From positions 1-64,000 of the forward strand of contig SVFB01000027.1 of NCBI GenBank assembly GCA_015057085.1: a stretch of DNA of 64,000 nt, written 5' to 3'. Below, piece after piece: positions 35,765 through 60,390 of the stretch (its first letter is position 1; each line of letters opens with the position of its first letter). The translations under genes and the position numbers were made by a program. The notes beneath the pieces are model-generated. The model did no database searches and had not been told where the DNA came from. It saw only the letters and a program-made list of their open reading frames with translations. The DNA comes from Lachnospiraceae bacterium (GTDB lineage Bacteria; Bacillota; Clostridia; Lachnospirales; Lachnospiraceae).

Positions 35765-36172
35765 ATGAAACGTGTAATCACTTATGGCACATTTGATTTG
35801 TTACATTATGGCCATATCAATTTGTTGAAGCGCGCAAAACAATACGGAGATTATCTGATTGTAGCCCTTTCAACAGATGAATTTAACTGGAATGAAAAAC
35901 AAAAGAAGTGCTACTTCTCGTATGAACAGCGCAAAGCACTGTTGGAATCTGTGCGATATGTGGATTTGGTGATTCCGGAAACCTGCTGGGATCAAAAGAA
36001 GACAGATATGCACGAATATCATATAGATACTTTTGTGATGGGAAATGACTGGGAAGGCAAATTTGACTTCCTCAAAGATGAAGGAGTTGATGTGGTATAT
36101 CTTCCACGTACTCCGGAAATCAGCTCCACACAGATTAAAAACGATTTGCATCAGGCAAACAAGGAACAGTAA
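35765..36172 (+). CDS. tagD: Glycerol-3-phosphate cytidylyltransferase (TagD-like)
   Basis: MKRVITYGTFDLLHYGHINLLKRAKQYGDYLIVALSTDEFNWNEKQKKCYFSYEQRK; RTPEISSTQIK. Confidence 0.9.
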   Translation: MKRVITYGTFDLLHYGHINLLKRAKQYGDYLIVALSTDEFNWNEKQKKCYFSYEQRKALLESVRYVDLVIPETCWDQKKTDMHEYHIDTFVMGNDWEGKFDFLKDEGVDVVYLPRTPEISSTQIKNDLHQANKEQ

Positions 36173-36176
36173 AGAA

Positions 36177-36998
36177 ATGAAACACGACAATTTGTCAAAA
36201 GTACAATTGATGATCCTTGAAGTATTCAAGCCGGTCTATCAATATTTGCAGGACAACCAAATAGAATATTATATGCTGGGCGGCACACTGTTAGGCGCTA
36301 TTCGTCACGAAGGATTTATCCCTTGGGACGACGACATGGATATCGGAATTCCAAGACCGCAGTACGAGAAATTCCTGCAGGAAATCCAGGCTGTGCTTCC
36401 GGAGCATTTAAAATTAGAAACATATTATGATGAAACACCACATCATTATTATTTTTCACGCATCGTAGACACCCGATATGCATTGGAGCGATTGGGCAGT
36501 ATCGAAGCACGAGAAGAAAACGTATGGATTGATATCTTCCCGCTGGACGGAATGCCAAATCATGCCATCCCGCGCAAGATACATATGTTTCGACTTCTTG
36601 CCACAAGAGCAATGTATCACATCTCTTGCTTCGAAAAAGTAAATTTGAAGAGACCAAACCGTCCGTTATCCGAGCGTATTGTCATTAAGTTTGTGCAGAT
36701 CACAGGCTTTGGAAGACACGGAGATACCAGAAAGAAATTAGATAAACTGGATCGTTTGTTGAAAAAATATCCTGTGGAAAAGAGCAATTACTTTGTAAAT
36801 TTCATGGGACAATACAAATTTAAAGAAATGTTTCCAAAGACCATCTACGGAGATGGGGCACTGTATCCATTTGAGGATTATCAGTTAATGGGACCAAAGG
36901 ATTATGATGCAGTATTGACGCAATTGTACGGAGATTATATGACTCCGCCAAGCGACACAGACAAGAATGCACATGCAGCAGTCTTAAAAGACGAATAA
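36177..36998 (+). CDS. LicD family phosphotransferase
   Basis: YYMLGGTLLGAIRHEGFIPWDDDMDIGIPRPQYEKF. Confidence 0.92.
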   Translation: MKHDNLSKVQLMILEVFKPVYQYLQDNQIEYYMLGGTLLGAIRHEGFIPWDDDMDIGIPRPQYEKFLQEIQAVLPEHLKLETYYDETPHHYYFSRIVDTRYALERLGSIEAREENVWIDIFPLDGMPNHAIPRKIHMFRLLATRAMYHISCFEKVNLKRPNRPLSERIVIKFVQITGFGRHGDTRKKLDKLDRLLKKYPVEKSNYFVNFMGQYKFKEMFPKTIYGDGALYPFEDYQLMGPKDYDAVLTQLYGDYMTPPSDTDKNAHAAVLKDE

Positions 36999-37810: not shown

Positions 37811-38548
37811 ATGAAAGAAATAGCAATTTCCGTCGAAAACATGGTCTTGCGCTATCGTAAGATTAAGAAGTTTTCTATCAAAAAACAGCTTTTAAGTCGC
37901 AAAAAGAAAAAGAATCCAAAGGATAAATATTTTGAAGCAATCAAAGGAATTTCCTTTGAAGTTCCGAAAGGAGAAATCCTTGGCGTCATCGGAAAGAACG
38001 GAAGCGGTAAATCCACTTTGCTCCGCGCCTTGGCAGGAATCTTCTCGCCGGACGAAGGAAGCATCGACATGCACGGACACAGCATTTCGCTTCTGTCCAT
38101 TGGTGTAGGCTTCCAAAAGGAAATGTCCGGACGCAAGAACATTTATTTATCCGGTTTATTGCTGGGCTTCTCAGAAGAACAGATCAAAGCAAAGGAACAG
38201 GAAATCATCGATTTCTCAGAGCTGGGCGATTTCATCGATCAGCCGGTAGAAACATACTCCAGCGGTATGTATTCGAAACTAGCCTTTGCCATCACCGCAA
38301 TCTTAGAAACCGACATCATCCTGGTAGACGAAGTCTTATCCGTAGGTGATGAGCGATTCAAAAAGAAGAGTTACAAGAAGATGAAAGAACTGATTTCCGA
38401 CGATGACCGAACAGTGGTTATTGTATCGCACTCACTGAGTTCATTACTTGATTTATGTACATCCGTACTCTGGATGCATGATGGAGTGATTAAGAAAATC
38501 GGGAAGCCGGAAGAAGTTATTGAAGAATACAGAGAATTTATGAAATAG
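37811..38548 (+). CDS. ABC transporter ATP-binding protein (TagH/Wzt-like)
   Basis: ILGVIGKNGSGKSTLLRALAGIFSPDEGSI; YSSGMYSKLAFAI; DIILVDEVLSVGD. Confidence 0.93.
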   Translation: MKEIAISVENMVLRYRKIKKFSIKKQLLSRKKKKNPKDKYFEAIKGISFEVPKGEILGVIGKNGSGKSTLLRALAGIFSPDEGSIDMHGHSISLLSIGVGFQKEMSGRKNIYLSGLLLGFSEEQIKAKEQEIIDFSELGDFIDQPVETYSSGMYSKLAFAITAILETDIILVDEVLSVGDERFKKKSYKKMKELISDDDRTVVIVSHSLSSLLDLCTSVLWMHDGVIKKIGKPEEVIEEYREFMK

Positions 38549-38558
38549 AGGATTACTC

Positions 38559-39446
38559 ATGACGAACAATAATCAAATCGATACCAGACATTATCATCAA
38601 ATCTTGATGGATATGTTGATCACATTTGATAAAATGTGCAAGGAACAAGGAATGACCTATTCCTTGGCAGGAGGAACTTTATTAGGCGCAGTACGTCATC
38701 AGGGATTTATCCCATGGGATGATGATGTGGATGTGTTTCTTTTGAGACCGGACTACGAAAGATTTGTAGAGATTTATTCCAAAATGGAACTGCCAAAACC
38801 ATACTATAAAATCGTAACACTAAAAAATGGGGTGAAAGAGATTTCTTTTGCACGTATGCTTGATCAACGTGTGAGAGTAGACCATGAGAGAAGCAATAGT
38901 GTAACGACAGCATGGATAGATATTGTACCGCTTGATGCAGTCCCGGAAGATCCGAAATGGCAAGAAAAACTAGTTCGAAAACTTTCTTTCTATCGCAAGG
39001 TTCGTATTGTTGCTAATGCCAAAATGGGGAGTGGTCGTACAACATGGCAGATAATTGTTCGTTCTACAATGGGACCTCTTATTCGAAAGTTGCATTTGCA
39101 AAATGCTGTATGCAAACGAATTGATCGTTTAGCAAAGAAGTACCCATTTGAAAAAGCTGAATATTTTGCAGAGATTGTTGCGAAGGCAAACTTTAATGGC
39201 ATGGGACGTATTGATTTATTTAAGAGCCCTGAAATCATTGAATTTGAAGGATATCCATTTATGTGTATGCCGGATTATGATGCTTATTTACGTGGCCAGT
39301 ATGGGAATGACTATATGAAGTTGCTCCCAAAGAACAAGCGCATAGCGCATGGAGTGGCAACATTTATCAACGAGGAATATTTCGAGCAGAATGGGCTAGA
39401 ATTGCCGGATGAAAATCAGCAGGATGTTTTAGTAGAGGACATGTAA
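38559..39446 (+). CDS. LicD family phosphotransferase (first of the duplicated pair)
   Basis: YSLAGGTLLGAVRHQGFIPWDDDVDVFLLRPDYERF; clear paralogue of 43300-44181. Confidence 0.92.
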   Translation: MTNNNQIDTRHYHQILMDMLITFDKMCKEQGMTYSLAGGTLLGAVRHQGFIPWDDDVDVFLLRPDYERFVEIYSKMELPKPYYKIVTLKNGVKEISFARMLDQRVRVDHERSNSVTTAWIDIVPLDAVPEDPKWQEKLVRKLSFYRKVRIVANAKMGSGRTTWQIIVRSTMGPLIRKLHLQNAVCKRIDRLAKKYPFEKAEYFAEIVAKANFNGMGRIDLFKSPEIIEFEGYPFMCMPDYDAYLRGQYGNDYMKLLPKNKRIAHGVATFINEEYFEQNGLELPDENQQDVLVEDM

Positions 39447-39447
39447 G

Positions 39448-40116
39448 ATGTACGAAGAACAAATTCAGGCGGTTATAAGAGCACATAAGATGCTTCACGA
39501 AACTGGAAAAGATGTATTAGATAATAGCTTAATCGTATTAAGAGCAGATTCTGGTAATTATATTGTACGTGTAAGAAACAGATTTCAAAATGATTTAGAT
39601 GCGATGCAAATCTTTGTGGTTAATCGTGACGGAATCACTGCAGATGGCAAAAAGATAGATTTAGATCTGCGATTTTTTGTAGATGTAAAAATGTTAGAGC
39701 GCTATGATTGGATGAATTGTGTAGTAAACTCAACTATGAAATATTCTACGATATGGAATCAGAGTGAGGTTGCGCTTCCTCCACTTTCAACAATCCATGC
39801 GAAATATTTCTTTGGAGAGGTACCTGTGAGTGCGCCGATTAACTATACGAGAGGCGATTCTTTTGTGGATGTTGTTTCACAAGAGGTACTTGAGGTCTTA
39901 CGCTATGGAAATCCAAAGAAATGTCGCGGAATGTTTGTACCAAAGGTTGATACAATTATCTGGGGAGAGAGTCTCGATGAGGCTGTAGAGCTTGCTTTGG
40001 CATTGGAATCATTGGCAGAACATGCATGGGAAGTCGCAAAAGAAAGCAATGGATGTATGAGATATCTTCCGTATGCTTTAGTTGATGAAGTTTATCGCGA
40101 GTATCATAAAGAATAA
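39448..40116 (+). CDS. Class II aldolase/adducin-fold protein, probably lacking catalytic metal ligands
   Basis: Class II aldolase layout, but the HxHS position reads NSTMKYST and the NHG position reads PKVDT. Confidence 0.75.
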   Translation: MYEEQIQAVIRAHKMLHETGKDVLDNSLIVLRADSGNYIVRVRNRFQNDLDAMQIFVVNRDGITADGKKIDLDLRFFVDVKMLERYDWMNCVVNSTMKYSTIWNQSEVALPPLSTIHAKYFFGEVPVSAPINYTRGDSFVDVVSQEVLEVLRYGNPKKCRGMFVPKVDTIIWGESLDEAVELALALESLAEHAWEVAKESNGCMRYLPYALVDEVYREYHKE

Positions 40117-40121
40117 TTGAG

Positions 40122-40155
40122 ACAAGGAGCGAACTTCATTCGCTCCTTGTTTTTG
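40122..40155 (+). terminator. Rho-independent terminator inside the locus
   Basis: ACAAGGAGCGAA-CTTCA-TTCGCTCCTTGT-TTTT. Confidence 0.93.
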
Positions 40156-40223
40156 ATATTTACTAAGAAATCAAAACATGGTATATTAGTACTAGTCTAC
40201 TGCGCTGGAGGCAGGAATTATAA

Positions 40224-41525
40224 ATGAAAAAAGTGATTACGTATGGAACATTTGATATGTTTCATCAAGGACATTACAACATTATCAAACGTGCAAAAGA
40301 ATATGGAGATTATTTAATCGTTGGTGTAACCGGTGACAGTTATGATGTGGGACGCGGAAAGCTGTCTGTGCATGACAGCATTGCAACGCGAATTAACAAT
40401 GTGAAAAATACCGGTTTGGCGGATGCCATTATCGTAGAAGAATATTTAGGACAAAAAATCAGCGACATCATTAAGTATGACGTTGATGTATTTGTAATTG
40501 GAGATGACTGGAAAGGTAAATTTGACCACTTAAAGCAATATTGTGATGTGGTTTATTTGGAACGAACGAAAAATATTTCCAGCACACAGCTTCGAGAAGA
40601 AAACTTTAAACAGTATAATATCGGTCTGATTGTAGACGAACCAAAAGATAACCAGTTGATTGTAGAATCTCAGAAACTGAGCGGATTCAAGGTAACTTCC
40701 GTATTCTCAGAAAGTAGGGAAGTTTTGGATGCATTTCAAGAAAAATACGACATCGAAAATGCATATCGAAATCTCGATGCATTTTGGAGAGATACAGATA
40801 TTGTCTTTGTGAAGTGCCATTTGGATAAACGCGCTGATTTTATAGAACAGTGTCTAGCGCATGGAAAGCATGTCATTGCGGATCCACCATTTAGCTTGGA
40901 TGCAAAGATTCATAAACATCTATACAAGGTAGCAAAAGATAATCAGGTAGCATTGATTGATAATGTTAAGATGGTTTATGTTCGAATCTTTATTCAGTTG
41001 CTTTGGATGACACATGCAGGAATGATTGGCGATATTATCCGATTTAACTGCTCTATCTCGAAAAGAGACCGCAGCATTGTTAATCTTTTTGATGATTTAG
41101 CTGCGCTCGCACTTTGCCCAGTTATTAAGATTATGGGAAAAGAATATGATGCGATTGAGCCTAACCTTGTAACTTCGGAAGATGGAATTGAGTATGCGTC
41201 AATTACATTAAAGTATCCGACAGGTGAAGCAAGCATCAATATCGGTAATAAGATTCGTGTTAAGGAACAGTTGGAAATTATTGGTACAGAGGGCACAATC
41301 CGGTTAAAAGATAACTGGTGGAAGAGCAATTACTTTGAACTTGAAACTACAGATGGTTCAGAAGTAAAGACCTACTCAATGAATTTTGAGGGAAACGGAT
41401 TCTGCTTCCTGTTAAGTGCGATGCGTACGATGCTCGAGAACAATCGTACGGAATCAATGGGACTGTTTCCGGATGAATCCAATACCATTGTAAAAATCTT
41501 AGAATATATTCATCATAACAAATAA
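40224..41525 (+). CDS. Fusion: TagD-like cytidylyltransferase + degenerate Gfo/Idh/MocA-like domain
   Basis: N-term MKKVITYGTFDMFHQGHYNIIKRAKEYGDYLIVGVTGDSYD...RTKNISSTQL; C-term NIGLIVDEPKDNQLIVES...CLAHGKHVIADPPFSLD...LEIIGTEGTIRLKD. Confidence 0.85.
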   Translation: MKKVITYGTFDMFHQGHYNIIKRAKEYGDYLIVGVTGDSYDVGRGKLSVHDSIATRINNVKNTGLADAIIVEEYLGQKISDIIKYDVDVFVIGDDWKGKFDHLKQYCDVVYLERTKNISSTQLREENFKQYNIGLIVDEPKDNQLIVESQKLSGFKVTSVFSESREVLDAFQEKYDIENAYRNLDAFWRDTDIVFVKCHLDKRADFIEQCLAHGKHVIADPPFSLDAKIHKHLYKVAKDNQVALIDNVKMVYVRIFIQLLWMTHAGMIGDIIRFNCSISKRDRSIVNLFDDLAALALCPVIKIMGKEYDAIEPNLVTSEDGIEYASITLKYPTGEASINIGNKIRVKEQLEIIGTEGTIRLKDNWWKSNYFELETTDGSEVKTYSMNFEGNGFCFLLSAMRTMLENNRTESMGLFPDESNTIVKILEYIHHNK

Positions 41526-41530
41526 GGGGT

Positions 41531-43279
41531 ATGAAATTAATGAAACTTTCAGATTATATGGTAGACTTCCTTGCAAAAAAAGGAATTACCGATTTCTTTG
41601 GATATCAGGGAACGATGATTGCACATTTTGTAGATTCCATTTATAAGAATCCAGCTGTGAAGAATCACGTTTGTTATAATGAGCAAGGCGCGAGCTTTGC
41701 AGCCTGTGGTTATGCAACGACGAAAAACGCCTGTGCCTGCGCTTATGCAACCAGCGGACCGGGAGCCATCAATCTCGTCTCAGGAATCGCAAATGCATAC
41801 TATGATTCTATTCCAGTCATTTTTATCACGGGGCAGGTAAATACATATGAATGCCATTACGAAATCAAAGGACTTCGTCAGCAGGTATTTCAAGAGACGA
41901 ATGTGGTAGGAATTGTAGAGCCTGTTACAAAGTATGCAGTTAGAATTGATGAGCCGGAGCAGATTCGCTATGAATTAGAGAAGGCCTATGCAATTGCAAA
42001 CAATGGTCGGAAAGGACCGGTTGTGATTGACCTTCCTATGAATATTCAAAGAGCGGAAATCAATCCGGATGAGTTAAAAAGTTATGAAGAAACCGAAAAC
42101 GAACTGCCTAAGATGGCAGAAAAAAATGCGGTTTATGAAGATTTAAAGACAAGTTTTGCAAGTGCTAAAAGACCTGTTATCTTAATTGGAAACGGTGCAT
42201 CGGAGCATGCAGTACAAGTGATTCATGAGTATGCGAAAACATGTGGTTTGCCAATTGTTTCAAGCTTATTGGCAAAGGATCGTTTCCTGGCAGAGGATGC
42301 TAATTACTTTGGATATGTAGGTGCTGCTTACGGACATCGTTATGCGAATTGGATTGTTGCATTGAAAGCAGATTTAATTGTTTCAGTTGGAATGTCAATG
42401 TGTACAAGACAGACAGGAACCGTACTCGAAAGATTTGCACCGGATGCGAAGTTGATTCGATTTGATGTGGATTCTTCTGAACTTTGCCGAAAGGTTAAAG
42501 AAGAGGAAACTTCATACCTGCTGGATTGCGATTCGGTAGCGGATTTGTTTGAACAGATGATGCAGAAAGGCACACATACTGTAGCGGATGAGAACTGGCT
42601 TGATGAGTGCCGTGCCTATAAAGCGTACACAGAGAAATTCGATGATTCTTTGGAACAGCGAAGACCAAATAAATTTATTGAAGCATTGAGTGCGCAGACT
42701 AAAGAAGGAGATGTCATCGTAGGGGATGTTGGCCAGCATATGATGTGGGTTGGACAATCCTTTGATACAAAGAAAAATCAGAAAGTTCTTTTCTCCGGAG
42801 GACATGGTGCAATGGGATACGCTTTGCCGGCAGCAATTGGAGCAAGTACAGTAAGACCGGAGAATACTGTATATGCGGTTTGCGGTGATGGGGCTTTCCA
42901 GATGAACATTCAAGAGCTACAGTGGTTGGTTCAAGAACCACGCAATCTTGTGGCGATTGTGATGAATAATCAGTCTCTTGGATTGATTACACAACAGCAA
43001 GATGCTTATTTTGAAGGAAATCATTTTGCAGCAGGTTCACCGTATTTTTCTTCACCAAATTTTGCAAAGGTTGCAACTGCATACGGAATTGAATCTGTAC
43101 AGGTTTCCACACCGGAGGAGTTGGCAGAAGCGGTGAAAAAGCATGGTAACAAACCATTGTTGATCGAGGTAATACTTGGAGAGGGAACCTTTGCATATCC
43201 GAAGACTGCATTGGGTGCTCCGATTTATAAACAGGAGCCATTAATGCCGGAAGAAGAAGTAAAAGCATTTTGGAACTAA
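41531..43279 (+). CDS. Thiamine pyrophosphate-dependent enzyme, acetolactate-synthase-like
   Basis: CYNEQGASFAACGYA (catalytic Glu retained), SGPGAINLVSGIANAYYDSIPVIFITGQV, GDGAFQMNIQELQWLVQEPRNLVAIVMNN TPP motif. Confidence 0.93.
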   Translation: MKLMKLSDYMVDFLAKKGITDFFGYQGTMIAHFVDSIYKNPAVKNHVCYNEQGASFAACGYATTKNACACAYATSGPGAINLVSGIANAYYDSIPVIFITGQVNTYECHYEIKGLRQQVFQETNVVGIVEPVTKYAVRIDEPEQIRYELEKAYAIANNGRKGPVVIDLPMNIQRAEINPDELKSYEETENELPKMAEKNAVYEDLKTSFASAKRPVILIGNGASEHAVQVIHEYAKTCGLPIVSSLLAKDRFLAEDANYFGYVGAAYGHRYANWIVALKADLIVSVGMSMCTRQTGTVLERFAPDAKLIRFDVDSSELCRKVKEEETSYLLDCDSVADLFEQMMQKGTHTVADENWLDECRAYKAYTEKFDDSLEQRRPNKFIEALSAQTKEGDVIVGDVGQHMMWVGQSFDTKKNQKVLFSGGHGAMGYALPAAIGASTVRPENTVYAVCGDGAFQMNIQELQWLVQEPRNLVAIVMNNQSLGLITQQQDAYFEGNHFAAGSPYFSSPNFAKVATAYGIESVQVSTPEELAEAVKKHGNKPLLIEVILGEGTFAYPKTALGAPIYKQEPLMPEEEVKAFWN

Positions 43280-43299: not shown

Positions 43300-44181
43300 A
43301 TGAATTATACAGATTTAAGATTAGATCAAGTGGAATATCATAAATCTCTGCTTGGTATGTTAAAGGTCTTTGACCGTATTTGCAAAGAGGAAGGTATGCC
43401 GTATTCTTTGGCTGGAGGAACATTACTTGGAGCTGCACGCCATCAAGGATTTATTCCATGGGATGATGATGTGGATGTATTTTTGCTTCGACCGGATTTT
43501 GAACGTTTTATTGAGAAATATTCACATGGAGAATTGATTGATGGACGTTATCAGATTTCCTCCATGAAGACAGGACTAAAAGAAATTCCAATTGCGCGTT
43601 TATTGGATATGAAAGTAAAGGTAAAGCATGATACCAGTGTTTCAATCCCAAAGCACGCTTGGATAGATATCGTTCCTTTTGATGCGATTCCAAATGATGG
43701 AAAAGAAGCTCAAAAGTTAATCAAAAAATTAGCTAAGTGGCGTGAATATCGTATTCTTGGAAATGCTTTGCCTGGAAGCGGCAAAAGCAGACGTCGACGC
43801 ATTGTAAGAACTTTCTGGGGGATTGTTTTAAGAGGATTACATCTGATTCGACCAATTTCGAAGCATATTGACCGACTTGCAAAGAAAACAAATTTTGAAG
43901 AGTCTAAGCAGTTAGCCGAAATTGTAATCAAAGGTAATTATAACGGTCGTGCGAGTCTGGAATTATTCCTGCATCCAGTGTTGTTACCGTTTGAAGGATA
44001 TCGATTTATGTGCATGCCGGATTACAGCGATTATTTGCGTGGACAATATGGTATGGATTATTTGAAGCTGATGCCAAAGAATTTACGAGAGTCACATGGT
44101 GTGCGAGCATGGTTGGACAAAAAGTATTTGTCTGAAGAAGAAAAAAAAGCGTTAAAAAATCAAACTTACACGTTCGAATAG
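43300..44181 (+). CDS. LicD family phosphotransferase (second of the duplicated pair)
   Basis: YSLAGGTLLGAARHQGFIPWDDDVDVFLLRPDFERF; MCMPDYSDYLRGQYGMDYLKLMPKN. Confidence 0.92.
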   Translation: MNYTDLRLDQVEYHKSLLGMLKVFDRICKEEGMPYSLAGGTLLGAARHQGFIPWDDDVDVFLLRPDFERFIEKYSHGELIDGRYQISSMKTGLKEIPIARLLDMKVKVKHDTSVSIPKHAWIDIVPFDAIPNDGKEAQKLIKKLAKWREYRILGNALPGSGKSRRRRIVRTFWGIVLRGLHLIRPISKHIDRLAKKTNFEESKQLAEIVIKGNYNGRASLELFLHPVLLPFEGYRFMCMPDYSDYLRGQYGMDYLKLMPKNLRESHGVRAWLDKKYLSEEEKKALKNQTYTFE

Positions 44182-44193
44182 AGGATTGAAAGA

Positions 44194-44844
44194 ATGTTTG
44201 CAGTTACAAAAGAACAGCTGTTGGATGCCTATCGTTTGATAAAGAATCAAACAGTCGATATAGTAAATAATAGTATGATCACCGTAAAAGCAGAAGAAAA
44301 CTGCTTTTGGACACGAGAAGATATAAAAAACAACAATTGTCTTTGTGAAGAGAATTTGATTTCTGTTAACAAAGAAGGCCAAAATTCTGAAGGAAAAACA
44401 GTTGATGGTAGATTTACAATTGATCAGGCTGTGTTTGAAATGTTACCGGATATTCATTGTGTGATTCATTTGAGTTCACGATATTGTAGCGTTTGGGCGC
44501 AGAGTGGTTCGAATCTTCCGCCAATCTCTTATCAGCAGATACAGGAATTTGGCGGAGAAATTGTCTGTACAGAACTTCCGATGCATCGTGATGGAAGTCA
44601 GTGGCAACAAGAGATTGCAGGCAAAGTTAAAGAGGCAATCGAGTCACGTGAAGCTGATCAGATGAGGGCACTGTTTATTAATAAGTATGAGGCACTGGTA
44701 TTTGGCGCAGATTTGAATGAAGCGATTGAGAGAGCAATTCTGCTTGAGGAATTTGCTTATCAGACATATCTTGTGGGTGTGGAAAATGCCGGAGAATATA
44801 CTTATTTGCCATATAATTTGATTGAAGCAGTGAGACAAGAGTGA
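44194..44844 (+). CDS. Class II aldolase/adducin-fold protein, probably lacking catalytic metal ligands (second copy)
   Basis: DIHCVIHLSSRYCSVWAQSGSNLPPIS (HLSS at the HxHS position); FINKYEALVFGADLNEAIERAILLEE (no NHG). Confidence 0.72.
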   Translation: MFAVTKEQLLDAYRLIKNQTVDIVNNSMITVKAEENCFWTREDIKNNNCLCEENLISVNKEGQNSEGKTVDGRFTIDQAVFEMLPDIHCVIHLSSRYCSVWAQSGSNLPPISYQQIQEFGGEIVCTELPMHRDGSQWQQEIAGKVKEAIESREADQMRALFINKYEALVFGADLNEAIERAILLEEFAYQTYLVGVENAGEYTYLPYNLIEAVRQE

Positions 44845-44863
44845 AGTTTTGGAGGTGCCAAAA

Positions 44864-47035
44864 ATGTGGAAGAGAATTTCAGCGACTATTTTGGGAATGA
44901 TGGGAATAATTATGTTGGGAATTCTTGCGAAACCTGCAGTTGCGAAAGCTGTAACGGTTCCGGAAGGAGCATTGGATGTACGAGACTATGGAGCAACACC
45001 GAATGATAATACGGATGACTCTACAGCAATTCAAGCTGCTTTGGATTCCATTGAAGGTTCCAATGAGGTTGTGACTGTGTATATCCCATCCGGTACATAT
45101 TATTTGGATCGAGGACTTCGTGTTTGGTCCAACACTACTATCTTAGCAGAGAAGGATACAACACTTATCTGTCGTTCTTCAGTCGGTTATATGGTTTATT
45201 CCGTGCATCGTCATGATGATGGGTCTATATGTTGCGGAGTAGGAGATGCCTATAGCAGTTGTAAAGTTGGTGGATATAATCAGGCGAAAAATATTACAAT
45301 CAATGGTGGAATCTGGGATCGCAATTCATCCAATCAGGAGATTACTATTGTAGTAGGAATTAAGCATGCGCAGAATATCAAACTTTACAATGCAACCTTT
45401 ATGCATTCAACCGACCATTTGGTAAACTTAAGTGGTACAAAGAATGTAACAGTTAAGAATTGTAAATTCAAAGATAATGTGACTTATGCAGGAAGTGATC
45501 AATCATATTGGACAGGTGGAACAAGTGCTGTCGACAAGCGTGTTCGTCTGGGACAACGTGAAGCAATTCATTTAGACTTTGTAAATAGAGTCGGAGAGTC
45601 AAATTCTTATCCACAGGACAATACGCCTTGCGTAAATGTAACGGTCACCGGATGTAGTTTCTCTAATGTTGGTTCCGGAGTGGGAACACACCATGAATGT
45701 AGCAAGAAACGTGGAAGTGATATTACAGTGACCGGATGTACTTTCTCAAAAGTGACCGGATATTTGGTGGATTTTTATAGCTCAGATAACTGTCTGTTTG
45801 AGAATAGTACCATTAACGGTGAAAAGAATGGTGCACTCGTGCGTGTATCAGATGCAAAAGCAACAGTAAATAATCTGTCCATGACTAGTATTGATACCAA
45901 TATTGGGCCGGTGGTTTATGTACGTTTAGGTTCGACCTTGAATATGTCAAACGTGAAGATAGTAATTGCAAAGGACCTTGGAAATACTTTTAATTCTTTA
46001 GTGTATGTAAACAGTTCAACGGCAACAATCAATAAGTGCAAGATTCAAAATGGAGATTCATTTGGTATATATGCAAGTAAGAATTCTAATTTAACTGTAA
46101 AGGGATCTACCATTTCTACGACCAATGATTTTGCAATTGGTACAAATGATTGTAAAAATGTTACTATTCAAAAGAATACAATCAACAATGCAAAGGCAAA
46201 GAAAAAAGGCGCGATTTATATCGGTAGTGTTAAAAAAGCGGTTGTAGCGGATAATACGATTAAGAAGACTGCAGGATTAGGTATTTATGTAACGGAGACA
46301 ACCGGAGCTCAAGTATTGAGAAATAAGATTTCAAATGTTGGAAACATTGCAATCTATGCTGTATCATCACCAAAGACAAAGGTGGTTGGAAACACAATTT
46401 CAAATGTATCAAATGCCACAATTGGAATTGTTGAGAGTTCATATTCCACGGTAGATACTAATACAATCACGACACCAAAAAAACTCGGCATTTATGTGTT
46501 TAAGAGTAAAAAATGTAATGTAACGAAGAATACGATTACAGGATCAAAAGATACCGGTATTCATGTAGAAAAGGGAAGTTCAAATACCATTTCTAACAAT
46601 ACAATTACTTCTGCAGGTGTTCAAGGTATTACAATCCTTTCAAATTCGTCAACGGTAAGCGGAAATACCATCAAAAATCCAAATCGTTGTGGAATTTATA
46701 CTAGTGGTACAACAGGAATTACGCTACTAAAAAACAAGATATCCGGTGTTGGGTCTTGTGGAATTTATGTTGAAAATGCAAAGAAATTGACAATTAAGAG
46801 CAACACAATCGGAAAGAGTAAGAGTGTTGGTATCTATGTTGTTGGAACCAGTTCAAAGAACTATGCAAATGTGACGATTACCGGTAATACGGTAAAAGCA
46901 TCAAAGTCAAAGTTTGCAATTTACCTTGAAGATTATTGTAAATCATGCAAGGTAAAATCAAATAAGGTTGGTGGACGTGGCTATTTGTCAGATAGCAAAT
47001 ACAAAGTGTCTGCGTCAAAAAATAAGGCAATTTAA
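44864..47035 (+). CDS. Secreted right-handed beta-helix protein with N-terminal pectate_lyase_3-like segment
   Basis: Signal peptide; LDVRDYGATPNDNTDDSTAIQAALDSI; long run of beta-helix repeats (e.g. VTGNTVKASKSKFAIYLED). Confidence 0.9.
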   Translation: MWKRISATILGMMGIIMLGILAKPAVAKAVTVPEGALDVRDYGATPNDNTDDSTAIQAALDSIEGSNEVVTVYIPSGTYYLDRGLRVWSNTTILAEKDTTLICRSSVGYMVYSVHRHDDGSICCGVGDAYSSCKVGGYNQAKNITINGGIWDRNSSNQEITIVVGIKHAQNIKLYNATFMHSTDHLVNLSGTKNVTVKNCKFKDNVTYAGSDQSYWTGGTSAVDKRVRLGQREAIHLDFVNRVGESNSYPQDNTPCVNVTVTGCSFSNVGSGVGTHHECSKKRGSDITVTGCTFSKVTGYLVDFYSSDNCLFENSTINGEKNGALVRVSDAKATVNNLSMTSIDTNIGPVVYVRLGSTLNMSNVKIVIAKDLGNTFNSLVYVNSSTATINKCKIQNGDSFGIYASKNSNLTVKGSTISTTNDFAIGTNDCKNVTIQKNTINNAKAKKKGAIYIGSVKKAVVADNTIKKTAGLGIYVTETTGAQVLRNKISNVGNIAIYAVSSPKTKVVGNTISNVSNATIGIVESSYSTVDTNTITTPKKLGIYVFKSKKCNVTKNTITGSKDTGIHVEKGSSNTISNNTITSAGVQGITILSNSSTVSGNTIKNPNRCGIYTSGTTGITLLKNKISGVGSCGIYVENAKKLTIKSNTIGKSKSVGIYVVGTSSKNYANVTITGNTVKASKSKFAIYLEDYCKSCKVKSNKVGGRGYLSDSKYKVSASKNKAI

Positions 47036-51490: not shown

Positions 51491-52591
51491 ATGACAGAGT
51501 CGAATAAAAACAAATTTACAATGGATGATACTTGGGCGTTAAAAGGCATTGCTATTCTTTTAATGCTATTCCATCATTCTTTTTTGAGCCCACAGAGGTA
51601 TGCCGGAGATACAGTGATTTTTTCTCCGTTCTCGGAGACTTTTATTAATCAGATTTCATCAGCTTCCAAAATCTGCGTTTCATTGTTTGTTTTTGTGACT
51701 GGGTTTGGTCTTGCAATTTCATTTTCGAAGGTCAAAGATGGTCAGATAAATAAGTGGATTGGGACACGCTTGATTCGAGTGATGTCCGGATTTTGGTTTG
51801 TATTCTTTTTATCCAATGTGATATGTCAAATCATTGACGGGAGACCATGGAATATTTACTTCGCGGAAGGGATTGTCCGAGGCGTTTTATATTTTTTGAC
51901 TGATTTTTTGGGACTTTCATCGTTGTTGGGAACTCCATCTCTATGCGGAACATGGTGGTACATGAGCATCGCAGTGTTATTTGTGCTGATTGTGCCAATA
52001 TTAGTATGGATTGATCGAAAATTTGGTCTGATTACAATGCTATGCATATCTTTTTTTGCTTATATTATTTTGGTTCCTACTGAGTATGATGCGAAAAGTG
52101 TTTTCACATGGTTGCCTGTATTGGCGCTAGGTGTGGCTTGCGCATTACATAATACATTTGAGAAAATATGTGGTTTTTTTGAATCGAAACCAGTATGGTA
52201 TAAGTGTGGCGTCACTTTGCTGGGATGGTGTATCGTATTACTGTTTTATGCGAAATTTTATGAAATCAGTGGTAGTCGATATTATTATTTGAGATATGGA
52301 CTTTTCCCGTTTTTGCTAATTGTTATGTTAAAACTCTCAGTATTTAAACTAAAAGGGATTCGGGGAGTATTAGGTTGGCTAGGAAAGTATTCTATGGATA
52401 TATTTTTGACACACACTTTCTTGCGGCAGTACTATTTACATACTTTTATCTATTCGTTCAAGTATATGGGCGGTATATTGCTTGTGCTATTTGTAGTTTC
52501 ATTAATATTGGCAATCGTTGTGAGCGAGCTTAAGAAATTGATGCATTATAGTCAATTTATCGATTGGTTGATTCAGAAATGTACGAGATAG
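51491..52591 (+). CDS. Acyltransferase 3 (OafA/YrhL-like) membrane protein
   Basis: DDTWALKGIAILLMLFHHSFLS; multi-TM; SMDIFLTHTFLRQYY. Confidence 0.85.
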   Translation: MTESNKNKFTMDDTWALKGIAILLMLFHHSFLSPQRYAGDTVIFSPFSETFINQISSASKICVSLFVFVTGFGLAISFSKVKDGQINKWIGTRLIRVMSGFWFVFFLSNVICQIIDGRPWNIYFAEGIVRGVLYFLTDFLGLSSLLGTPSLCGTWWYMSIAVLFVLIVPILVWIDRKFGLITMLCISFFAYIILVPTEYDAKSVFTWLPVLALGVACALHNTFEKICGFFESKPVWYKCGVTLLGWCIVLLFYAKFYEISGSRYYYLRYGLFPFLLIVMLKLSVFKLKGIRGVLGWLGKYSMDIFLTHTFLRQYYLHTFIYSFKYMGGILLVLFVVSLILAIVVSELKKLMHYSQFIDWLIQKCTR

Positions 52592-55248
52592 GTGAAATGT
52601 TTAGTTTTAAGAGCGAAAGACCGGGAAATTATATGAGTGAGAAACGAGTGGCAATAAGTGGTGGAATAGCGGTTTTGGGTGCGATATTTTTAAATATCGC
52701 ATGTAAAACTTCGCATATTATGATAACGTATAAAAGCATTTTTGCAATTGTGCAAAATCTGTTGATTTCACTTGCCATTTTGACACTTGGTTATCGATTG
52801 AATCATGTGCTGGTGCAAAAAGGGGTACGCGATTATTATAAACAATTTTTGGTGGAGAAATATTTCAAAATTGTTTGTTGGCTTTCTATCATAATTGCAT
52901 TTACAATTGCAGTTTGTTTTGCTGTAGGACAGCAAGCTCGGATTGATGGCATATGGGGGACCGAGATGAAAAATCGGATGCTCGGGCCCCTGTTCAATGT
53001 TTTGGGTATAGCCGATATAGTGGGTTATCGCTGGATTGTGGCGCCATGGAAATATGTAAGGATTTGCATGTTGTATATGATAGTAGCGCCTATCCTGCAC
53101 TATGTGATTAAAAAAATAAGACCGGCATGGGGATTCGCAATTGGATTCCTTATGTGGGTCTTTTTGTGCTATAAAATTCCTGAACATGCTATGATTTGTA
53201 TGTTTCCGGTTTTCTTTATTGGAATGATTGCGAATCAACATTTGAATCAAGGAAAAGCAAGACCATCAGCTGTTATATTTCACAATGTTTCTATCTATGC
53301 TGTATCGGCATGGCTAATTCATGTCCCATTATATTTTTGGTGGATGAAAAAAATTTTACAGAGGCTCCATAACGGATTTTTGATATCAGTAGTCGCTACA
53401 GTTATTATAACTGTTTTTGCAATTGCATTCTCTGAACTAATCATTTGGTTATATCAACATTATGCAATTATTTTAAAGAACAAGAAATCTATTGATTTAC
53501 TGTTTTCTTTGTTGCTTGTAGGAGCAAACTATTTATATGTTTTTTACAATTCGGTTCCGGCTTTTTTAACGAATGATGATTCTAGGATACAGCATGTATT
53601 ATCCGGCAGTTTTTTGGGAGAACCGTATTTCTTTCATCAGTATATTCATCCTGCTATTTCAATACCTATTGCATGGCTATTTTCTTGCATTTCAAATGTA
53701 CCGTGGTGGTATTTGTTTTGTCATCTCTTAGTGTTTATAGGCTTGATGGCAATTCATTATACGGTTATTAGACTGGCAAGAGAAAGAGAATTACCATTGC
53801 TATTTATCATAGCAATAGTGGAATTGTTTGACGGCTCATTCATTATGTTTAATTTATGGAGAATGTCCTTTACGCTTACATCTATCCTTATTGGTTGTGC
53901 GTCAATCATACTAATCTTTGTCTTAACAAGCAGAGAAAAACTTTTTTGGGAAAAGAGGGGACTGTTAGTTGTCGGAAGCATTTTATGTTTTATACTGGCA
54001 TGCTTTGTACGAATTTCTGAGGGATATGTTCTGGTTGCTTATGTTGTCCTTATTTCTGCCTACGGAATCTTTTCACGACAGGAAGCGTTAATTCGACGTG
54101 TGGGAAAGCTAGCATTTGTTATCGCAATAGCGGTATGTATGGTAAAAGGTATTGGGTATGTTCAATCTGATATTATAAAGAATATAAATGGAAATGAATT
54201 CATAGAATTTAATCATGCTAGAAGTACTTTTATTGATTATCCGCATGATACTTACGAAGAAAATCCGGAGCTATATCAAAGTGTAGGCTGGGATGAAGAT
54301 ACTTTGTTTCTTGCAGAATCGTGGTGTTTTATGAATGATAATATCACAACAGAAGCGCTACAAATGATTGCAGAAAACCAGACTATTAGTATCAAAGAAA
54401 ATATAAAAGATGCTTTTGAGCAAATCAAGAAAACACCACCGACTGTAGTGGCACTAATCGCATATGGCCTTTCTTGTGTGTTGATTTTGATATGCTTATT
54501 CCCAAAACGCCAAAAATGGTTAACGATTGCAGGCATATGCAATTTATTTGGAACATTGATATTGCTTGTATATCTTGCAATAAAAGGAAGATTTATCTAT
54601 AGGGCAATAGCGGTAGTACTTATTCCGGCGACTTTAGTTAATATGTTGCTTTACATTTCAAACATTGAGCATAAAGCGCGTAAAAAACATTTGATGTATG
54701 TTTTGACAGCGCTTATTTCGGTATGTTTGGTTATTCCAATATGCAGTTCAGTTTTTCAATCGAAAGAGAAAGAACAAAATATGCTGAAAAAATTTAAAAT
54801 ACAAAGTGATACATACGCGTATTTTAATGAGCATCCTGAAAATATTTATATTACAGAAGTTTATTCTCTGGTAGAGCTAAACCCGTTTGATTTAAGTGAC
54901 GAGAGCAATATGATGTATTATGGCAGTGCATTATTTCATTCTGATATTATGGATAAGAAAGCAGAAAAACTTGGAATAGCTGATATGAACGGGAATGTGT
55001 TCAAACAGTCGAATGTTTATTATGTAAGTCGAGTAAATATTGAGGACGAAAGTAAATTCGAAAGTCGTAATACACTAAGTGCTTTTTATAATACTTTGAA
55101 GAAGGATTATGGAGCCATTGGTATCCAAAAGATTGATGGTATCGATCAGACGCTTTGGGTATATCGGTTTGTATATGAAGATAGTAAGCAATTGCCAATA
55201 GAATATTATGATATTGTAGATGGCATTCCGCTAATTGTTGATAATTGA
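52564..55248 (+). CDS. Large membrane protein: acyltransferase-3-like N-terminal half plus GT-C-like polytopic C-terminal half; start uncertain
   Basis: 894-aa ORF with about 20 hydrophobic segments; mid-protein PAFLTNDDSRIQHVLSGSFLGEPYFFHQYIHPAIS resembles the acidic loop of GT-C enzymes. Confidence 0.6.
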   Translation: MVDSEMYEIGEMFSFKSERPGNYMSEKRVAISGGIAVLGAIFLNIACKTSHIMITYKSIFAIVQNLLISLAILTLGYRLNHVLVQKGVRDYYKQFLVEKYFKIVCWLSIIIAFTIAVCFAVGQQARIDGIWGTEMKNRMLGPLFNVLGIADIVGYRWIVAPWKYVRICMLYMIVAPILHYVIKKIRPAWGFAIGFLMWVFLCYKIPEHAMICMFPVFFIGMIANQHLNQGKARPSAVIFHNVSIYAVSAWLIHVPLYFWWMKKILQRLHNGFLISVVATVIITVFAIAFSELIIWLYQHYAIILKNKKSIDLLFSLLLVGANYLYVFYNSVPAFLTNDDSRIQHVLSGSFLGEPYFFHQYIHPAISIPIAWLFSCISNVPWWYLFCHLLVFIGLMAIHYTVIRLARERELPLLFIIAIVELFDGSFIMFNLWRMSFTLTSILIGCASIILIFVLTSREKLFWEKRGLLVVGSILCFILACFVRISEGYVLVAYVVLISAYGIFSRQEALIRRVGKLAFVIAIAVCMVKGIGYVQSDIIKNINGNEFIEFNHARSTFIDYPHDTYEENPELYQSVGWDEDTLFLAESWCFMNDNITTEALQMIAENQTISIKENIKDAFEQIKKTPPTVVALIAYGLSCVLILICLFPKRQKWLTIAGICNLFGTLILLVYLAIKGRFIYRAIAVVLIPATLVNMLLYISNIEHKARKKHLMYVLTALISVCLVIPICSSVFQSKEKEQNMLKKFKIQSDTYAYFNEHPENIYITEVYSLVELNPFDLSDESNMMYYGSALFHSDIMDKKAEKLGIADMNGNVFKQSNVYYVSRVNIEDESKFESRNTLSAFYNTLKKDYGAIGIQKIDGIDQTLWVYRFVYEDSKQLPIEYYDIVDGIPLIVDN

Positions 55249-56425: not shown

Positions 56426-58153
56426 ATGTTAAAAAGGGGAATTATAAGTGTTTTAGTAGTATGTATATTAGTTGGAATGCTTTCATTCCAAGAGAAGGTA
56501 TACGCAAATTCAGATGATGTAATAGTAACTATTAATCCGACGATGGATAATAGAGAAATCAACAAAATACTAGAAACTCCACATGAAGGAACTTTGTTTG
56601 TTAAGGCGCAGGATGGAACGTATGATAATCTTCATGGAACATTGTTTATTCATTCAAATACATCTTTTATTGCTTCGGATAAGGCATTATTTATAAATGG
56701 TGGAAGTAAAAACGATTCAAGTAAGCGTTATGGACCATTTATCCAATCTGTCATAGAATATGATGATGAAGGCGATTATTTAGAAGTTCATGACATCACA
56801 ATACGTGGAGGACAGTGGGATAGCTCAAATTTATCAAAAGATGAAGGAACAGAATCTTTTAGATTTGTACATTGTAGAAATGTGACAATGGACAGTGTAA
56901 CAGTATGCAACGTTCCGAAGAAAAGTCATTTAGTTGTCTTAGCAGGAGTGAAGGGCGCATTAATAAAAAATTGTAACTTTTATGGTATGTATAATTGGAA
57001 CAGCAAAAACTTAAGTACCATCGAATGTAAAGAAGCTGTACAGTTAGATGTGACTCATAATAACACTGTTGTGCCAGTGCAGGCAAAAAAGATAAATGAT
57101 TCTCTATGGGATGATACGCCGTGTTCTGATGTGACAATTACAGGATGTTCGTTTCATGAATTTACAAGGGGAATTGGAAGTCATACTGCGGTAGCAGGAG
57201 TTTTTCATAATAATATTACTATTTCCGGAAATTATTTTTACAATATAAGTGATACTGCAATGAAGTTATTTAATTATACGAATGCAGTCATAGAAGGCAA
57301 TTATTTAGGAGTGAGCAAAGCTGGGAAACAGGGTTCTGTTACTGAAGGAATATTAGTATATTCTTCTCTAAACGAAAGCAATGAAAGTGGATATTATTTT
57401 CAGCCAAACTCTGGCCAAAAGAAAATCATATTGCCGGAAAATTATAATATAAAGATATGTAATAATTTAATATCAAACACAAAGGAACGAATGAACAATG
57501 GAAAACATTTGTGGGGGGATGCTATTCGCGTTGCAGGGTCAGATTCTCGTCCTCTTATAGGAGTTACTATTTCTGGTAATACGATATCAAACTGTGAAAG
57601 ATATGGGGTTTTCGCTTCTCACACAAAGGATTTGATTATTAATGGGAAGAATACTATCACAAATATCAATGTTGATGGAATAAAGGTTATAGATTCAGAT
57701 GGGTCAATCATTAGCTATAATACCGTGCAAAAGACAAAGCAATGTGGAATTAAGTGCACGAATGGAACAGTTGCCAAAATCCATCATAATACGATAGAAA
57801 ATTATGGACTAGAAAAAGATGAAACCTTCGGTATATATGTTTATAAGTCTGCGGCCAAAAGTGCTGATACTGCTGTCAAAATATATTCAAATAAGGTAAC
57901 TGGAAAAGGAAGCGGTAAAAAGAAAATAGCGATAAAAGTAAGCACATCGCCGTATGCAGTGATTAGTTCCAATGTTGTAAATAAACCGGGTGCTGAAGGA
58001 ATAATGACATATAAATGTCCAAATGTGAAAATTAAAAAGAATACGATAAAAACAACTAGTAGTCATATCGCTATCTGGGTATGTCAATGCGAAAAATATA
58101 GTATTATCGAAAACAGTATATCAGGAACTGATAAAAAGTATAAAATTAATTAG
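56426..58153 (+). CDS. Secreted right-handed beta-helix protein, paralogue of 44864-47035
   Basis: Signal peptide; beta-helix repeats; KEAVQLDVTHNN...DTPCSDVTITGCSFHEF parallels REAIHLDFVNRV...DNTPCVNVTVTGCSFSNV in the first copy. Confidence 0.88.
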   Translation: MLKRGIISVLVVCILVGMLSFQEKVYANSDDVIVTINPTMDNREINKILETPHEGTLFVKAQDGTYDNLHGTLFIHSNTSFIASDKALFINGGSKNDSSKRYGPFIQSVIEYDDEGDYLEVHDITIRGGQWDSSNLSKDEGTESFRFVHCRNVTMDSVTVCNVPKKSHLVVLAGVKGALIKNCNFYGMYNWNSKNLSTIECKEAVQLDVTHNNTVVPVQAKKINDSLWDDTPCSDVTITGCSFHEFTRGIGSHTAVAGVFHNNITISGNYFYNISDTAMKLFNYTNAVIEGNYLGVSKAGKQGSVTEGILVYSSLNESNESGYYFQPNSGQKKIILPENYNIKICNNLISNTKERMNNGKHLWGDAIRVAGSDSRPLIGVTISGNTISNCERYGVFASHTKDLIINGKNTITNINVDGIKVIDSDGSIISYNTVQKTKQCGIKCTNGTVAKIHHNTIENYGLEKDETFGIYVYKSAAKSADTAVKIYSNKVTGKGSGKKKIAIKVSTSPYAVISSNVVNKPGAEGIMTYKCPNVKIKKNTIKTTSSHIAIWVCQCEKYSIIENSISGTDKKYKIN

Positions 58154-59415: not shown

Positions 59416-60390
59416 ATGTGTACAGCAATAACTTATTCAACAAAAGATCATTATTTTGGTCGTAATCTGGATTTGGAATTTTCTTATCGTGAAGAGGTGA
59501 CAATTACACCGCGCAATTATCCGTTTGTGTTCCGCAGAAATAATAGGATTGAACAACACTATGCATTGATTGGAATGGCATTTGTGGTTGACGATTATCC
59601 TCTGTATTACGATGCAACAAACGAAAAAGGCCTAAGTATGGCTGGACTGAATTTCCCCGGAAATGCAGATTATAAAGACGAATGTGCAGATATGGATAAT
59701 GTGGCTCCGTTTGAATTTATCCCATGGATTTTATGTCAATGTGCAAGTGTGGAGGAAGCCAGAAAACGCTTGGACAAAATAAATCTTGTGCGAATTAACT
59801 ATAGCGATGAGCTACCGTTGTCACCCTTGCATTGGATGATTGCTGATCAAAAAGAAGTGATTGTCGTGGAGTCTGTAAAGGAAGGTTTGAAGGTATACGA
59901 GAATCCCGTAGGCGTTATGACAAACAATCCGACATTTGACAAGCAATTATTTTCCTTAAATAATTATATGAATCTCTCACCGGAACCAGCCAAGAATTCA
60001 TTCGCCAGCAGTCTGAAACTGGATGACTATAGTCGTGGAATGGGGGCAATTGGTTTGCCGGGAGATCTTTCATCTTCTTCGCGTTTTGCTAAAGTTGCAT
60101 TTACCAGGATGAATTCTGTTTCCGGTAGCTTAGAGGCAGAGAGCGTCAGCCAGTTTTTTCATATTCTTGGTTCGGTAGAACAGCAGAGAGGGTGCGTTCA
60201 TCTTGGAGATAATCAATACGAAATCACAATATACTCATCATGCTGCAATATGGATAAATGCATTTATTATTACAAGACCTACGAGAATTCACAGATTACT
60301 GCCGTGAAGCTATTTGATGAGAAAATAGATGGAAATGTATTGTCGAGATATCCTCTAAGGAAAGAAATGCAGATTCAGTATGAGAATTAG
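59416..60390 (+). CDS. Choloylglycine hydrolase / penicillin V acylase family (bile salt hydrolase-like)
   Basis: MCTAITYSTKDHYFGRNLDLEFSY (Cys-2 nucleophile, GRNLD); GLSMAGLNFPGNADY; GVMTNNPTFDKQL; LPGDLSSSSRFAKVAF. Confidence 0.92.
   Translation: MCTAITYSTKDHYFGRNLDLEFSYREEVTITPRNYPFVFRRNNRIEQHYALIGMAFVVDDYPLYYDATNEKGLSMAGLNFPGNADYKDECADMDNVAPFEFIPWILCQCASVEEARKRLDKINLVRINYSDELPLSPLHWMIADQKEVIVVESVKEGLKVYENPVGVMTNNPTFDKQLFSLNNYMNLSPEPAKNSFASSLKLDDYSRGMGAIGLPGDLSSSSRFAKVAFTRMNSVSGSLEAESVSQFFHILGSVEQQRGCVHLGDNQYEITIYSSCCNMDKCIYYYKTYENSQITAVKLFDEKIDGNVLSRYPLRKEMQIQYEN

Follow-up and report, generated by a model that had tools for sequence, protein, structure and literature searches.

An AraD-like class II aldolase-fold protein lacking its metal ligands is encoded directly behind LicD and is a candidate non-catalytic LicD partner

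LicD proteins (PF04991) are relatives of human fukutin and FKRP, and their substrate specificity is poorly understood. The class II aldolase fold is represented among enzymes by the Escherichia coli L-ribulose-5-phosphate 4-epimerase AraD and by FucA, in both of which two adjacent subunits form the active site; the epimerisation residues of AraD are D120 and Y229 (PMC5434028). A class II aldolase homologue with one of its three ligand histidines mutated was still a homotetramer and had no activity (PMC5216522), and in adducin the aldolase fold has lost its enzymatic activity and binds a protein partner (PMC10467427). In the literature, we found no paper joining LicD with a class II aldolase, a pseudoenzyme or a thiamine enzyme.

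The window (the whole 64,000-nucleotide stretch analysed here) encodes two pairs in which an aldolase-fold gene directly follows a LicD gene, as well as a LicD that stands without such a partner:

36045-36998, plus strand: LicD1, the third LicD, without an aldolase-like partner (coordinates of the listed ORF; translation may in fact begin nearer 36171)
38559-39446, plus strand: LicD2, phosphotransferase family, WDDDVD motif intact (ORF, Pfam, motif)
39448-40116, plus strand: AldII-1 (222 aa), a predicted pseudoenzyme with an AraD-type class II aldolase fold (ORF, Pfam, alignment, AlphaFold2, Foldseek)
43300-44181, plus strand: LicD3, 53% identical to LicD2 (Pfam, comparison, tree)
44194-44844, plus strand: AldII-2, the second copy and paralogue of AldII-1, two of the three metal ligands lost (Pfam, alignment, tree, AlphaFold2)

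Residues 8-192 of AldII-1 match the Pfam family Aldolase_II (PF00596) with E = 3.5e-11 and 43.8 bits, above the curated cut-off of 22.2, and cover profile positions 2-181 of 183, almost the whole chain. The AlphaFold2 model (pLDDT 88.7, pTM 0.88) had AraD 1jdi as its top Foldseek match (E = 1.4e-14, TM 0.86), with FucA-type aldolases next. Besides the two copies from the window, the input alignment included seven AraD proteins taken from viral contigs. The model is therefore no independent support for the AraD assignment, which Pfam and phmmer reached without those rows. The class II aldolase fold proposed in the first-pass annotation was thus borne out over the full length, and AldII-1 is a member of the fold family. 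The nearest relatives are AraD proteins rather than generic aldolases: E. coli AraD (1k0w/1jdi, E ~2e-6) gave the sole convincing PDB sequence matches, and in NCBIfam the closest models were those for L-ribulose-5-phosphate 4-epimerases, every one scoring well under its cut-off. The AraD equivalog model TIGR00760, for example, gave 47.6 bits where 389.1 are required, which places AldII-1 outside AraD proper.

We aligned both AldII copies with E. coli AraD and its relatives using MAFFT; the counts that follow exclude the window's own copies (n = 71 relatives). The zinc ligands H95, H97 and H171 of AraD, each kept in 71/71 relatives, correspond to N94, T96 and V167 in AldII-1, in agreement with the earlier claim that no histidine stands at any of the three metal positions. 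An alignment error, or ligands displaced in register, was rejected as an explanation: the only histidines of AldII-1 are residues 13, 17, 117, 192 and 220, none of them within 20 residues of N94/T96 or V167. The three-histidine pattern of a metal-dependent class II aldolase or epimerase (HxH and a later His) is therefore missing. The losses extend beyond the metal. D76 of AraD (D in 69 and E in 2 of the relatives) is R75, D120 (69/71) is K119, and the C-terminal YYGQ tail bearing Y229 is gone. S44, S74 and S75 are R43, D73 and L74, so that the phosphate site and its phosphate-binding serines are lost, and N28 is S27. Changes to the GN(L/I)S and SG segments, also reported in the first pass, were seen as G27N, N28S, S30I, P43V, S44R and G45N. 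From these replacements, AldII-1 has almost certainly lost AraD-type catalysis, and class II-type catalysis of any kind is very unlikely, since both ligands and catalytic residues are lost and a homologue with a single mutated ligand histidine is already inactive. Automatic labels such as 'class II aldolase' or 'ribulose-phosphate epimerase' in capsule clusters can accordingly mislead on catalysis.

The gene itself is intact. In-frame codon usage matches that of the neighbours (0.148, against -0.159 and -0.027 for the shifted frames), a ribosome-binding-like AGAGG precedes the ORF, and core positions are retained (G62, G67, Q105, P111, F121, A183, L186, E187 and A190). A sequencing or frame error was rejected on the in-frame codon usage and the full-length profile match. 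A recent pseudogene was likewise rejected, as the site loss is mostly older than the duplication described below.

AldII-2 has a stronger Pfam match to Aldolase_II (E = 2.2e-18), and its AlphaFold2 model (pLDDT 82.5) superposes on 1jdi with TM 0.80 but an rmsd of 6.5. It is 27% identical to AldII-1 and keeps one metal ligand, H95, as H92, with H97 replaced by S94 and H171 by Y165. Among 76 AraD-invariant columns (at least 90% identical in AraD), 12 are kept by both copies, 14 by one, and 50 are lost in both. At 15 of these 50 jointly lost columns the two copies carry the same new residue; with a coincidence chance of 6.5%, the binomial tail is ~4e-7, a rough value as the columns are not independent. 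In a tree, AldII-1 and AldII-2 are sisters (100/99) on long branches, for which the method warns of long-branch joins. Because so many replacements are identical, the simplest reading of the alignment is that a common ancestor of both copies had already lost much or most of the AraD site, and that duplication and a long divergence as open frames followed. The first metal histidine of AldII-1 was probably lost after the copies split, since AldII-2 retains H92.

That a LicD gene adjoins AldII-1 was also correct: the upstream ORF is a LicD by Pfam, and a single base separates its stop codon from the AldII-1 ATG. LicD3 and AldII-2 are separated by 12 bases, in the same order and on the same strand. 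LicD2 and LicD3 are sisters with support of 100/100 in a tree of 21 LicDs. The genome has three LicDs in total, and LicD1 is 31% identical, compared with 53% between LicD2 and LicD3. As the two sisters are each followed by an AldII copy and LicD1 is not, a LicD+AldII unit was duplicated, or was acquired twice from a single source. Both paired LicDs keep the WDDDVD motif, and so the phosphotransferases look intact, unlike the neighbouring AldII.

Our search for relatives of AldII outside its own genome covered 299 genomes of the family, all 62 of the genus, 392 of the order and 389 of the phylum, samples that partly overlap and come to ~1,000 in all; it found no close one. Besides the window's two copies, the matches inspected were ordinary AraD proteins with the histidine motif, and a two-row AldII profile scored its own copies at 414-430 bits and the best AraDs at ~74. 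Pattern scans of 84,980 genomes, along with viral contigs, plasmids and phages, also returned no close relative; these narrow patterns demand identical 8-residue stretches, to which divergent relatives are invisible. With LicD as bait, 397 family genomes gave no LicD at E <= 1e-50, a threshold too strict for weaker ones, and none of the LicD loci examined among the best class-level matches had an aldolase-like neighbour. LicD in general thus needs no AldII. The other genomes searched yielded no third LicD-AldII pair, and the linkage is consequently known from a single duplication within one genome.

The pairs lie among genes and signals of the following kinds:

28200: bacterial sugar transferase
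30693 (for example): glycosyltransferases
35732: glycerol-3-phosphate cytidylyltransferase, above its cut-off
37027 and 37811: ABC export genes, Wzm/Wzt type
40119-40153, plus strand: terminator-like hairpin, 15-pair stem then a T-rich tail, directly 3´ of AldII-1
40159-40187, plus strand: promoter-like site, TTTACT-17-TATATT with TG before the second hexamer, preceding the following transcription unit (consensus match only; regional count not above chance)
40224-41525, plus strand: cytidylyltransferase (TagD-like) fused to a divergent Gfo/Idh-type oxidoreductase, the first gene past the hairpin
41531-43279, plus strand: acetolactate-synthase-like thiamine diphosphate enzyme (Pfam/NCBIfam)
47060: SDR
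47819, minus strand: pyruvyl transferase
49326: CDP-glycerol glycerophosphotransferase-type gene

Judged by its annotated genes, this set is a teichoic-acid-like or capsule locus. The hairpin at 40119-40153 probably ends a LicD2-AldII-1 transcription unit; terminator-like sites are no more frequent across the region than expected (6 found, 7.8 expected), and this stem is the longest of the six. At third codon positions, GC is 0.43-0.50 in LicD1, Wzm and Wzt but 0.29-0.35 in LicD2 and the genes after it, with a sharp step at 38548-38559, between the Wzt-type ATPase and LicD2; the LicD2-AldII-1 pair therefore seems to open a block that came from elsewhere than the genes before it. The fusion gene at 40224 and the adjoining acetolactate-synthase-like enzyme may together build an unusual CDP-activated alcohol. 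We also noted two right-handed beta-helix proteins (NosD/pectate-lyase-like repeats) within the surface-polymer cluster (44849-47035 and 56426-58153), a choloylglycine (bile salt) hydrolase family gene in the same region (CBAH, E = 9e-106, 59416-60390), and an 894-aa ORF between two acyltransferase-3 genes (52564-55248) with no Pfam match at E <= 1e-6.

The first-pass annotation had proposed a non-enzymatic partner or substrate-binding subunit. The alignment gives good support to the loss of both the metal site and AraD-type catalysis; the case for a partner role is only indirect and comes from the coupling of the two genes and their duplication as a pair. We read a dead enzyme as the partner of a live LicD because AldII sits directly behind LicD in a duplicated two-gene unit, and we give about an even chance to AldII-1 being a pseudoenzyme that serves as a dedicated, non-catalytic partner or scaffold of LicD in the teichoic-acid-like cluster. 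AldII-1 would descend from AraD, and its substrate and acid/base site would have been lost before the LicD+AldII pair was duplicated, although the final metal histidine of AldII-1 may have gone later, as AldII-2 keeps it. The aldolase fold, and probably the oligomeric state, would be retained, and the protein, touching the co-encoded LicD, could act as a scaffold, allosteric or acceptor-positioning subunit while LicD transfers a CDP-activated phospho-alcohol to a teichoic-acid-like polymer. The analysis itself shows the predicted fold, the lost site, an intact frame and a LicD-then-AldII order duplicated as a unit, and gene order and duplication suggest the pairing with LicD; the oligomer, the contact and any effect on transfer are inferred, adducin being a precedent for a dead aldolase fold put to use in protein binding. 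The AldII copies have diverged far more (27% identity) than the LicDs (53%), which counts against the partner reading and also fits weak constraint. A bolder version, about which we have more doubt than belief, is that the two copies represent a bacterial family not described before, in which pseudoenzymes derived from AraD serve LicD proteins as obligate subunits for activation or specificity, one for each LicD, with the two LicD+AldII pairs decorating one polymer with different phospho-alcohols.

The same replacements could instead mean that the AraD pocket was rebuilt, in which case AldII-1 would bind or isomerise a polyol phosphate or CDP-alcohol without metal and supply LicD or the fused cytidylyltransferase. 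New residues common to both copies include N26-S27, R41, D73, R75-F76 and D79, many of the fifteen shared replacements fall at former pocket positions (G27N, N28S, K42R, S74D, D76R, T77F, H80D), and the cytidylyltransferase-oxidoreductase fusion and thiamine diphosphate enzyme nearby resemble substrate-supply genes. However, sharing at the lost sites (15/50, 30%) is only slightly above the identity of the two copies in variable columns (33/138, 24%), meaning that the pocket has not been singled out for conservation; the tail that bore Y229 is missing; and all characterised class II enzymes known to us are metal-dependent. We consider a rebuilt pocket unlikely.

AldII-1 might also be a decaying leftover, its function lost and its frame still uninterrupted. 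That the two copies have diverged very fast, and that no search made turned up a close relative, is what decay would produce, but both frames remain open at 27% identity, with codon usage like that of the neighbours, a tight coupling to LicD, a confidently folded AldII-1 model and the retained core set from G62 to A190, and we regard decay as highly doubtful. Another role as a structural subunit is conceivable, with the fused cytidylyltransferase-oxidoreductase, the thiamine diphosphate enzyme or an AldII-1/AldII-2 hetero-oligomer in place of LicD. This family is built for subunit contacts, as the shared active sites of AraD and FucA attest, and candidate partner genes lie within 4 kb. Yet LicD alone was duplicated together with AldII, and a strong hairpin divides AldII-1 from the fusion gene, making such a subunit quite improbable in our view.

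We return to AldII-1 as a LicD partner in comparing it with described systems. Were AldII-1 a LicD subunit, the LicD family would, to our knowledge, gain its first proposed accessory subunit. LicD proteins are the genetic partners of AldII, and LicD2 and LicD3 keep WDDDVD; at the other LicD loci examined, the arrangement of LicD followed by an aldolase-fold gene is absent. AldII-1 resembles AraD (1jdi/1k0w) over the whole chain (TM 0.86-0.87) and in its best PDB and NCBIfam sequence matches, but differs in lacking the zinc histidines, D76, D120, Y229, the phosphate-binding serines and the YYGQ tail. With FucA and YgbL-type class II aldolases it shares the Pfam family and the fold (TMq 0.71-0.81), without their metal site and catalytic residues. 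The likeness to adducin heads drawn in the first pass holds at the level of the fold (chains 8iah and 8iai, TM 0.70-0.73), a resemblance common to all class II aldolases and not specific. AldII-1, in contrast, is bacterial, has 222 residues, ends after the aldolase fold with no neck or basic MARCKS-type tail, is closer to AraD, and is encoded with a phosphotransferase-family gene. As a LicD subunit, it would be a bacterial counterpart of the reuse of a dead aldolase fold in adducin. AldII-1, whose genetic partner is unusual, is thus a variant of the known class II aldolase-fold pseudoenzymes, a kind that has its precedent in adducin heads, and not a new category.
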